Assembly (NCBI GenBank): GCA_902528515.1
Contig: CABZTD010000014.1
Coordinates: 1 to 46,890, forward strand
Length of the DNA: 46,890 bases
Direction: 5' to 3'
DNA from: K189A clade bacterium
GTDB lineage: Bacteria; Pseudomonadota; Gammaproteobacteria; Pseudomonadales; Azotimanducaceae
The position numbers were made by a program, and so were the translations under genes. This document shows positions 5,841 to 9,396 of the stretch, one piece after another (within the stretch, counting starts at the first letter, position 1; every line of letters starts with the position of its first letter). The notes under the pieces were generated by a model. That model saw nothing but the letters and a program-made list of their open reading frames with translations. It had not been told where the DNA came from and did not search any database.

Positions 5841-7025
5841 TTAGGCCGATTCAAAGAGACCTGCGGCCCCTTGCCCACCGCCGATGCACATGGTGACAAC
5901 ACCGTACTTCTTGTTACGGCGCTTTAGCTCACGCAGGATCGATCCAGTTTGGCGAGAACCAGTCATACCGAATGGATGCCCAATAGAAATGCTGCCGCCC
6001 AGTACATTGTACTTCTCGTTATCAATGCCTAGGGCATCTCTGGAATAAAGGCACTGTGAAGCAAATGCTTCGTTCAGTTCCCAAAGGTCGATATCATCAA
6101 TCGACAGGCCTACATTCTTCAACAAGCGAGGAATCGCAAATACAGGGCCGATGCCCATTTCGTCAGGTTCACAGCCGGCCACCGTGAATCCACGATAAAT
6201 GCCAATTGGAGTGAGGCCGAGCTGCGCCGCGCGATCAGCGCTCATCAATAGCGTCATGGAGGCACCGTCAGACAACTGAGAAGCATTACCAGCAGTGACA
6301 GAACCATCTTCTTCGAAAGCAGGCGGCAGTGATGCTAGACCTTCGAGCGTAGTTTGTGGCCGATTGCACTCGTCCTTGTCTACCCATACTTCTTCGTGGG
6401 TTTCTTCTCCGGTTTCTTTATTCACCTTGAGCATGGTTGCGTTCATGCCAACGATTTCTTCAGCAATAGAGCCTGCCTCGACCGCGGCATGGTAACGCTG
6501 CTGACTTTGCAGCGCGTACTCGTCTTGAGCCTCTCGGGTAACTTGGTAGCGACGCGCCACGACTTCAGCGGTATTTCCCATCGCCATGAAAATCTCTGGC
6601 TTCTCATCCAACAGACGTTGATTTTGCTTTGACTTACCAGGCTCTTGGCGGGTACGCATTGAAATGCTGTCTACGCCCCCTGCAATGGCCACTTCAGTTT
6701 GACCGCTGGCGATCTGGTTTGCTGCCAAAGCAATGGACTGTAGGCCTGAGGAACAAAAGCGGTTGATGGTGACACCAGCCGTGGTGATGGGCAATTTGGA
6801 TAAAACGACAGCCAATCGTGCGAGATTACCGTCTTGCTCACCGGTATGGCTAGCCGCGCCAACATACACGTCTTCGACTTCGTCGGGTCCAAGCTGTGGG
6901 TTTCGATCCAACAGTGAATCAATACAGTGAGCCAGCAGGTCGTCCGAACGGGTGAGATTGAAGCTACCGCGAAAGGCCTTAGTCAAGCCAGTGCGAACGC
7001 TATCGACAATTACAACATCGCGCAT
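5841..7025 (-). CDS. Thiolase (acetyl-CoA C-acyltransferase)
   Basis: 394-residue degradative-type thiolase that cleaves 3-ketoacyl-CoA with CoA. The nucleophilic Cys91 sits in NRFCSSGLQ, the active-site His350 in [13 protein letters not shown] and the second Cys380 in [14 protein letters not shown], so the triad is complete and the length is standard. ATG at 7025 has GAGGAATTAACC upstream. It is a single minus-strand gene separated from the ompR operon by 268 bp. Together with the MaoC, crotonase and acyl-CoA dehydrogenase genes nearby it supplies the last step of a beta-oxidation-like route. Substrate length is unknown. Confidence 0.93.
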
Positions 7026-7406
7026 GGTTAATTCCTCATTTTTATCAAAGCTAATGTATTTGTTCAGCGGCTCTCACCGCTGGCGGTTTTGAACTAAGGC
7101 CGCAACGTCAATCCTCCACAGCCATTTCGGACCGCCAATTTTGTCTCCACGACTCCTTGTGGAGCCCCACTAGACAGGCGAGAGTTAACAATCAGTGTGA
7201 CTAGCGCTCGATCAAGCGATAGTTATCGACCTTACGGTTCGATGGTCCCCCACTCCGAAAATGAACTCGGTCTTTCATAGTTCCCTTGCCGGATGTTAAA
7301 CAGATCGCCTCGGTAGTGCCACCGCGATGTGGGCCTACTACACTTCATGATTTCGCGCGTCGCAAGATTGCGCTATGGTCCTTGGCACCTACACAAAGGA
7401 GCAGCT
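7026..7406. promoter_or_regulatory. Divergent intergenic region between thiolase and glutathione peroxidase
   Basis: 381 bp without a believable gene; it must hold promoters in both directions. I see small hairpins (AGCGG/CCGCT near 7066 and CTCCAC/GTGGAG near 7146) but no clear -35/-10 pair or known operator. Confidence 0.4.
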
Positions 7407-7898
7407 ATGACTCAATTTCACCAAATCACCATGGTCGATGCGCAAGGCAAAGAGATTTGCTTTCGAGACTTCGCGGGACAAACCTGTCTTATTGTCAACG
7501 TCGCCAGCCGCTGAGGCCTTACCAACCAGTACGCCGGGTTGCGTACTCTGCAAGAAGAATTCAGCGAACACCCTTTCACTATCCTAGCCTTTCCCTGCAA
7601 CCAGTTTGGTGCGCAAGAACCAGGTTCAGACGCCGAGATTTTGGAATTTGCCACAACTAAGTATCAGGCTAACTTTCCTATATTTAGCAAGATCAACGTT
7701 AACGGCAGTCAATCTTGCGAATTATATGCATTTTTGAAAGACCAACGCGCAGACGAAGAGGGAAATGTTGACATTTCGTGGAACTTTGCCAAGTTCTTGG
7801 TCGACGGTAAAGGCGAGGTGGTCGGCCGCTTTAGCCCGCAAACGGCGCCTGAAGAGCTAAGGACCGTTATTTTGGAGACGGTGGAGGCCTCTATCTAG
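7407..7898 (+). CDS. Selenocysteine-containing glutathione peroxidase (in-frame TGA = Sec36)
   Basis: 163-residue glutathione peroxidase that reduces peroxides with thiol donors. ATG at 7407 has AAAGGAG upstream. The frame meets TGA at 7512-7514 exactly where the catalytic Cys/Sec occurs (NVASR-U-GLTNQY) and then continues with a fully conserved peroxidase to TAG at 7896. The rest of the catalytic tetrad is present: Gln70 in FGAQEPG, Trp125 and Asn126 in ISWNF; the NPF-region motif FPCNQFG is at 62-68. A stem-loop suited to a bacterial SECIS follows the TGA (7529-7546). The usual resolving Cys of thioredoxin-dependent enzymes (KCxVNG) reads KINVNG, as expected for a Sec enzyme. Standard gene calling would give a 35-codon peptide plus a truncated protein beginning near 7539. 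Alternative: a nonsense mutation, which would have to fall on this one codon. Confidence 0.88.
7529..7546 (+). promoter_or_regulatory. Putative bacterial SECIS stem-loop in the peroxidase mRNA
   Basis: Perfect 6-bp stem GTACGC (7529-7534) / GCGTAC (7541-7546), extended by an A-T pair (7528/7547), with loop CGGGTT and a possible lower stem CTT/AAG (7518-7520 with 7552-7554). The loop begins 20 nt after the TGA and has a G at its second position. Both fit the commonly used bacterial SECIS rules (loop 16-37 nt from UGA, G in the first two loop bases), as I recall them. Confidence 0.65.
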
Positions 7899-7931: not shown

Positions 7932-7959
7932 CCCCGCAACCGTTTGACGGTTAGCGGGG
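7932..7959 (+). terminator. Terminator hairpin after glutathione peroxidase
   Basis: Stem CCCCGCAACCG (7932-7942) with CGGTTaGCGGGG (7948-7959), one bulged A and a TTTGA loop, 34 bp after the stop codon. The plus-strand tail is CGTTCTG; the minus strand has a run of Ts on its side (complement of 7927-7931), so it could work in both directions. Confidence 0.7.
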
Positions 7960-8241: not shown

Positions 8242-9396
8242 ATGACGGATTTATTCGAGAACTACACGTCACCATGGATGAACGATGAACTAACCATGCT
8301 GCGTGATGCGGCGCGCAAGTTTTTTACAACGGAGCTAGCACCGCAGCAGGAGCGCTGGGAAACTAACGGTATTGTCGATCGCGACGCTTGGACAAAGACA
8401 GGGGCCGCAGGGTTCTTGCTCGCGGAGATGCCCGTCGAATACGGCGGCGCAGGCGGGGACTATCGCCACGAGACTGTAATCATGGAAGAACAACTCAGAT
8501 CTGGAGCTTCGGGTCTCGGCACCCAGGTACACAGCCAAATTGTTGCGCCTTACTTTCTACACTACGGCAACAAAGAACAACGAGAACGTTGGTTGCCGGG
8601 TATGTCTGCGGGCACCAAGGTTGGCGCGATCGCTATGACGGAACCTAATACTGGCTCGGACTTGTAGAACATTCGTACCACGGCCATTCGCGATGGTGAC
8701 GAGTTCGTCATTAATGGATCGAAGACCTACATCAGCAACGGGCAGCACTGTGATCTGGTTATCGTAGTTACAAAAACGGATCCCTCCCAGGGCGCGAAGG
8801 GCATCAGCCTAATTGTGGTCGAAGAGGGCACCGAGGGTTTTAGTAAGGGCCGTAACCTTAAAAAGCTGGGCCAAGCAGCAGCAGACACTTCCGAGCTTTT
8901 TTTTGAAGACTGCAGAGTTCCGGCGGAAAATCTCGTCGGAGAGGAAGGTAGAGGCTTTGTGCAGCTCATGCAGCAGCTGCCCCAAGAGCGCTTAAATATC
9001 GCCCAGGCAGCAGTTGTGGATATGGAGCGGGCCATCACTCTAACCCTAGCGTTTGTAAAAGAGCGTAGAGCTTTTGGACAGCGCGTGCTGGATTTTCAAA
9101 ATACCAAGTTCAAGCTCGCGGAATGCAAAACCGAAGCGCTTATTGCGCGTACCTTTGTGGATCAATGCTTAGTGAAGCACCTAGCAGGTGAGCTGGATGC
9201 GTCAACGGCCTCCATGGCCAAATACTGGTGCACGGACAAACAAAACCAAATCATCGACACCTGTTTACAGCTACACGGCGGCGCAGGTTACATGGAGGAG
9301 TATCCTATCTCGCGCATGTACAAAGACGCGCGGGTGCAGTCCATTTACGGCGGCACCAACGAAATCATGAAAGAGTTGATAAGCCGCACACTTTGA
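8242..9396 (+). pseudogene. Acyl-CoA dehydrogenase interrupted by an in-frame TAG
   Basis: A full-length acyl-CoA dehydrogenase frame of 384 codons, except for TAG at codon 142 (8665-8667). The stop lies inside the conserved MTEPNTGSDL-x-NIRTTA segment, where the family normally has Gln; CAG to TAG is one transition. The same frame continues without further damage through the FAD- and substrate-binding regions to IYGGTNEIMK. The base is probably Glu249 in LPQERLN, as in long-chain/isovaleryl-type enzymes, since the C-terminal position is Gly. ATG has GGGAGAGG upstream. TAG is a normal stop elsewhere in this window, so recoding is unlikely; a recent nonsense mutation or a base-calling error fits. 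An N-terminal 141-residue fragment would be inactive. Confidence 0.85.

Follow-up and report, generated by a model that had tools for sequence, protein, structure and literature searches.

The window, the whole 46,890-nucleotide stretch of DNA analysed here (contig CABZTD010000014.1, assembly GCA_902528515.1, from a K189A clade bacterium of the Azotimanducaceae), contains on its forward strand a glutathione peroxidase (GPx) gene with a single TGA inside its frame (Table 1). As the original prediction held, this frame is intact through the TGA to its TAG, the only internal TGA lying in the context ASR-U-GLTNQY when translated as a residue, and it is preceded by a good ribosome site. The TGA does indeed sit on the codon of the catalytic Cys or Sec, and the family models align across it: Pfam GSHPx (PF00255) matches residues 4-111 (E 1.2e-39, 134.7 bits against a cut-off of 27), NCBIfam gpx7 matches residues 4-157 with E 4e-40, albeit under its curated cut-off, as does the other of the two narrower NCBIfam equivalog models. 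The catalytic tetrad of the family is represented by the TGA together with Gln70, Trp125 and Asn126, all three of which are present, as had been claimed. The resolving Cys, which had been said to be absent, is replaced by Ala82 at the position where most Cys-containing relatives have it, which sets the protein apart from the two-Cys (thioredoxin-type) GPxs. An AlphaFold2 model with the TGA as a residue, for which 72 of the 97 reference sequences prepared were used in the alignment, has a mean pLDDT of 95.6, and its best matches among PDB folds are the GPxs of Schistosoma, poplar and Staphylococcus along with human GPX8, GPX7 and GPX4. Beyond the gene, a terminator-like inverted repeat suggests a single-gene transcript; of this repeat, a terminator scan picked up the inner stem alone (7937-7953), on the minus strand, and the scan found 3 such sites against an average of 1.4 in shuffles. 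The same genome also encodes a second, distant GPx paralogue (L020, contig C3:79803-80093) whose catalytic codon is TGT and whose resolving position is occupied by Cys.

Table 1. Features of the glutathione peroxidase locus, with positions in the window
Feature	Position	Strand	Details and basis
Thiolase gene	5841..7025	-	Neighbour of the GPx gene
AGGAG, ribosome-binding-site-like	7397..7401	+	5 nt upstream of ATG; read from sequence
Glutathione peroxidase gene	7407..7898	+	163 residues with TGA read through; stop TAG; translation, Pfam, fold model
In-frame TGA, codon 36, catalytic position, putative selenocysteine	7512..7514	+	Translation and codons of relatives
SECIS-type hairpin	7528..7547	+	Stem of 7 bp; CGGGUU as apical loop (7535-7540), starting 20 nt past TGA; fold, geometry scan, pair counts
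Gln70, catalytic tetrad	7614..7616	+	Gln in 65/65 TGA rows and 41/41 Cys rows
Codon 82, Ala; resolving-Cys position of Cys-type GPx	7650..7652	+	Cys in 0/65 TGA rows and 38/41 Cys rows
Trp125-Asn126, catalytic tetrad	7779..7784	+	Trp and Asn in 106/106 distinct rows
Inverted repeat CCCCGC...GCGGGG, terminator-like, 3' of GPx gene	7932..7959	.	Read from sequence
Acyl-CoA dehydrogenase gene	8242..9396	+	Broken by an in-frame TAG at 8665-8667

The position of the gene is stable in the genus, since the thiolase gene adjoins it in 28 of 29 loci (L022-L050, at 86-98% identity), the lone locus without this neighbour, L044, belonging to another family. When 37 genomes of the genus, the source genome included, were searched with the GPx protein, an orthologue (at least 50% identity) was found in 31, a distant match only in G033 and no match in five. 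The internal TGA is present in 30 of these 31 orthologues, 28 of them with the codon itself read; G021 and G023 are counted from a table flag only, the gene in G021 being split across two contigs with the TGA on the first piece. Such recurrence means that the TGA is not there by chance. Moreover, the TGC or TGT that, according to the original prediction, would have spoken against it if found at this codon in close relatives is seen within the genus only in G036, which has TGC. Further afield, TGA occupies codon 36 in 41 of the best 80 of at least 576 relatives on GTDB-based contigs; the claim that Sec-GPxs are rare in bacteria fits the literature in the parts cited here, but is not true of this lineage. 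From 293 genomes drawn from the order, 220 have a GPx match at E <= 1e-20 and, among the matches listed, ten are flagged with an internal TGA. The TGA was read at codon 36 in seven of the flagged genomes (G000, G017, G039, G256, G276, G291 and G315), and G059 and G216 carry the flag with the codon unread, G216 having no selB over cut-off; G236, also flagged, was rejected, its codon 36 being TGC and no selB match being found at E <= 1e-40.

Altogether the loci with codons read comprise 112 rows (71 TGA, 32 TGC and 9 TGT), in which some genomes are represented more than once, and which dereplicate to 106 distinct proteins, 65 TGA and 41 Cys rows. From dN/dS values over codons 37-122, which are 0.011-0.074 in seven of ten pairs (dS was not computable in the other three), it is clear that the protein past the TGA is under strong purifying selection. 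This picture is difficult to reconcile with the TGA being a sequencing error or a nonsense mutation in a dying Cys-type GPx, an explanation which takes some encouragement from the draft state of the genome and from the nearby acyl-CoA dehydrogenase gene, which does carry a stop of this sort, but which is very improbable given a TGA shared by 30 of the 31 same-genus orthologues and by 65 of the 106 distinct relatives, strong conservation of the sequence that follows it and a hairpin that accompanies it (see below). The TAG of the acyl-CoA dehydrogenase gene is absent from all 15 aligned rows that cover the site (two contigs occur twice among these rows and two rows are distant), and intact copies exist; a stop confined to one row in this way forms a useful contrast to the TGA that GPx relatives have in common.

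The genes for selenocysteine decoding, selA, selB, selC and selD, in which the original prediction had seen a means of checking it, are all in the source genome, itself a draft of 2.13 Mb in 89 contigs and 75% complete. In profile searches selA (525 bits against a cut-off of 268) and selB (381 bits against 242, plus a SelB winged-helix match) are found on contig C7, with a tRNA-Sec gene 3 kb further on (73 bits against 47; anticodon TCA by ARAGORN); the tRNA search of the window gave none. A phage-type integrase gene (L015 9851-11333, contig C7) begins ~150 bases past the tRNA-Sec gene, which suggests an integrated element with tRNA-Sec as its site. On contig C16, selD (258 bits against 125) occupies the C-terminal half of a 747-residue protein (L016 253-2496), fused to an N-terminal pyridine-nucleotide oxidoreductase domain; the related 'fusion_not_SelD' model gives 468, short of its cut-off of 700. 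An in-frame TGA alone would look identical if the codon had been reassigned genome-wide, for example to Trp, with no selenocysteine involved. Such a reassignment is scarcely credible, even less so than an error: TGA terminates ordinary genes, selA and selB included, as well as 6 of the 32 mechanical ORFs of at least 250 aa in the window, from which it follows that the codon is not reassigned in this genome, and moreover the site is a Cys/Sec position, not a Trp position, in a genome that possesses the Sec apparatus.

Elsewhere in the genus, selB is over cut-off in 29 of 40 genomes and tRNA-Sec in 25 of 40. Considering the 30 genomes with a TGA-containing GPx, selB is over cut-off in 25; the five others are G010, G012, G013, G015 and G032, four of which are 64-82% complete, while G010 is 96% complete (520 contigs). 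Further genes with an in-frame TGA, SelW-like and with the TGA in a CxxU motif, occur in 5 of 13 genomes searched (L166, L167, L168, L169 and L170), each with its own hairpin, which has a GUC or GUU loop and an A-U closing pair; the search for such a gene in the window's own incomplete genome found none. Formate dehydrogenase was considered as a further selenoprotein and rejected, with an internal stop in none of 41 molybdopterin-domain matches (E <= 1e-30, 13 genomes).

Bacterial SECIS elements are modelled with a stem of 4-16 bp and a loop of 3-9 nt with G in its first two bases, placed 16-37 nt after the UGA and with an energy <= -7.5 (PMC13188914). The hairpin of the window lies within all of these limits, its perfect stem having an energy of -8.5 kcal/mol. 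A scan for perfect stems in this geometry was made over the 65 TGA rows and 40 Cys rows, the paralogue from the same genome having been dropped: at E <= -5 a hairpin is found in 65/65 TGA rows against 5/40 Cys rows, and at E <= -7.5 in 56/65 against 2/40. The distance from the TGA to the start of the loop is 20 or 21 nt in all 65 TGA rows. The loop itself has two forms, CGGGUU in 29 rows (28 TGA rows of the window's genus, the window included, and one Baikal MAG row, L066) and GGUC in the other 36. Codon-preserving shuffles were as stable as the real hairpin in 190 of 6500 trials; for 54 of the 65 genes no more than 5 in 100 synonymous shuffles were as stable, and for 11 more than 5 in 100 were. 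Taken alone against dinucleotide shuffles, the hairpin stretch of the window folds no better (z -0.93 to +0.37), and Rfam at its gathering threshold returned nothing in the window, a result which is not counted against the hairpin because bacterial SECIS elements are described as varying much between genes (PMC13188914). The idea that CGGGUU marks a genome-wide change of the SECIS code was rejected in that form, since the SelW-like TGA genes of four genomes of the genus, G008, G017, G030 and G036, have GUC or GUU loops. With regard to a possible co-evolution of SelB with the loop, between the SelB proteins of 13 CGGGUU genomes and those of 5 GGUC genomes, sets which also differ by descent, 30 of 705 alignment columns are separating.

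Pairing in the stem was counted at seven named pairs over 61 distinct rows, and 93.9% of cells are paired. Three pairs are invariant, one varies in a single partner and two vary in both partners (two-sided changes), namely 22-31 from G-C to A-U in 6 rows and 21-32 from C-G to U-A in 1 row; the A24-U29 pair is unformed in 26 of the 61 rows, the window among them. Sliding the partner by -2 columns gives 26 two-sided cells against 7 in the named pairing and a covariation score of 0.177 against 0.101, but lowers the paired fraction to 72.8%. The two-sided changes of the named pairing reach the protein. Ala43 and Arg46 are replaced by Thr43 and Cys46 where G-C has been exchanged for A-U, and Arg46 by His46 where the codon of Tyr42 is TAT; two genomes outside the 61-row set agree with this, G276 having the Thr43/Cys46 form and G291, in which a G-U pair is formed, combining Ala43 with Cys46. 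At residue 46, 65/65 TGA rows have Arg, Cys or His and 37/41 Cys rows have Glu or Gln. It would appear, therefore, that the RNA stem dictates the amino acids at the hairpin, with shared descent adding to the counts.

The reading of this gene as that of a selenoprotein is thus strongly supported by the sequence comparisons. The overall emerging picture, to which we assign a probability of about 95%, is of a probably monomeric, GPX4-like glutathione peroxidase in which residue 36 is selenocysteine, inserted by means of SelB and the hairpin, and which would reduce peroxides with glutathione as its most likely reductant. In such a scheme, SelB carrying Sec-tRNA(Sec) would bind the hairpin downstream of the UGA, and Sec would be inserted there in place of termination. 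Sec36, with Gln70, Trp125 and Asn126, would then reduce H2O2 or lipid hydroperoxides, the peroxide oxidising Sec36 to a selenenic acid, which an external thiol, most likely glutathione, would reduce, as in GPX4. An external thiol is proposed because the internal resolving Cys of the Cys-type enzymes is missing, and the presence of a glutathione synthetase gene, gshB, in the genome (408 bits against a cut-off of 299) makes a route in which two glutathiones would reduce the selenenic acid the simplest one.

A different regeneration step can be envisaged, in which Sec is inserted but the reductant is thioredoxin or some other protein thiol, not glutathione, and in which C104 or C27 might stand in for the resolving Cys. 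C27 is found in 48/65 TGA rows against 2/41 Cys rows and C104 in 49/65 against 3/41, and among Cys rows they are confined to the three that fall inside the Sec clade (C104 in 3/3, C27 in 2/3); the aligned Schistosoma GPx, too, has Cys at residue 27. Both residues are, however, absent in 7/65 TGA rows, such that neither can be essential throughout, and gshB speaks for a supply of glutathione. Regeneration of this kind is accordingly held to be unlikely, although far less so than either a mutational or a reassigned TGA, and glutathione remains the favoured reductant.

Bacterial Sec-GPxs have been predicted since 2005, and the GPx of the window is therefore a further member of a kind already known. 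Five bacterial sequences were given in a survey of the Sargasso Sea (PMC1088965) and 40 in the GOS survey (PMC2398784), which, as described there, are likewise from marine bacteria, with a predicted catalytic Sec in a UxxT motif and a bacterial SECIS. Those are metagenome survey sequences, whereas here selABCD, the neighbouring genes and many same-genus orthologues can be seen. A genome survey of 2006 tabulates a single GPx selenoprotein, that of Treponema denticola (PMC1794560), again a bacterial Sec-GPx in a Sec-decoding genome, but from an anaerobic spirochaete, unlike the present source. The animal enzyme GPX4 (PDB 6hn3, 6elw and 2obi) shares the GPX fold (TMq 0.89-0.91) and catalysis by Sec, and is 38-39% identical to the window GPx. 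The animal Sec-GPx line is reported to have lost its resolving Cys (PMC8614756), and the eukaryotic SECIS is placed in the 3' UTR (PMC1088965), whereas the hairpin of the window is within the coding frame. In plant and fungal Cys-type GPxs, by contrast, a second Cys resolves the oxidised catalytic Cys (PMC8614756). The best PDB sequence matches are of this type, yeast HYR1 (3cmi, 149 bits) and poplar GPX5 (2p5q, 142 bits), which have the same fold but Cys at position 36 where the window has TGA; a Cys aligns with Ala82 in the case of HYR1 and lies one residue later in poplar GPX5.

A GPx phylogeny of 2021 states that bacterial GPxs have both a peroxidatic and a resolving Cys (PMC8614756), a statement which the TGA clade described here contradicts. 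A review of 2026 counts a GPX-like protein not with the proven prokaryotic selenoproteins but with those 'predicted with high confidence' (PMC13188914); the main text of the deep-Sep paper has no occurrence of GPX (PMC12013277), and a limited literature search returned no description of a missing resolving Cys in bacterial Sec-GPxs or of reverted genes. The present lineage offers a well-supported gene set for testing the GPX-like protein as a prokaryotic selenoprotein and, beyond what the ocean surveys gave, shows the decoding system in full and conserved across many relatives. It also allows Sec enzymes, Cys enzymes with a resolving Cys and enzymes reverted to Cys to be compared as they occur in nature, which bears on the long-standing question of which tasks selenocysteine, but not cysteine, can perform.

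With regard to the history of the family, a quick maximum-likelihood tree of 105 rows, from which columns 27, 36, 82 and 104 were omitted, contains a branch (SH-aLRT 95) that sets the 65 TGA rows, together with 3 Cys rows, apart from all others. Four changes at the catalytic codon and a single change at residue 82 are enough to account for the tree; 48 of its 102 inner branches are unsupported, and the three nested Cys rows are placed on weak forks. The link between the TGA and the missing Cys82 thus rests on a single event, and an independent-pairs test of this association gave no significance (median p 1). In the nested Cys genes (L046, L060 and L084) the hairpin is gone or has only 4 bp, and they are without C82 and retain C104. 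L046, a long branch whose placement the tree program called unsure, comes from G036, which retains selB, tRNA-Sec and a TGA-bearing SelW-like gene, the last of which would explain why the machinery has been kept.

It is tentatively suggested, as a possibility with the odds against it, that gaining Sec has a ratchet effect on the protein. In that case the SECIS would pin residues ~41-47, C82 would have been lost once, in parallel to animal GPX4, and genes returning to Cys would keep a Sec-type protein needing a new regeneration path, perhaps through C104, all within one Sec-GPx family that has moved between phyla. If this were true, Sec-GPx would be a common environmental enzyme and not a rarity. 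Transfer of the gene between phyla is likely in itself, because the MAGs behind the rows of the tree are variously labelled Gammaproteobacteria, Alphaproteobacteria, Actinomycetota, Myxococcales and Deltaproteobacteria, labels to which binning errors could contribute. On viral contigs there are four GPx relatives, all four with TGT, and among plasmids 184 records match the GPx, every one at less than 60% identity.
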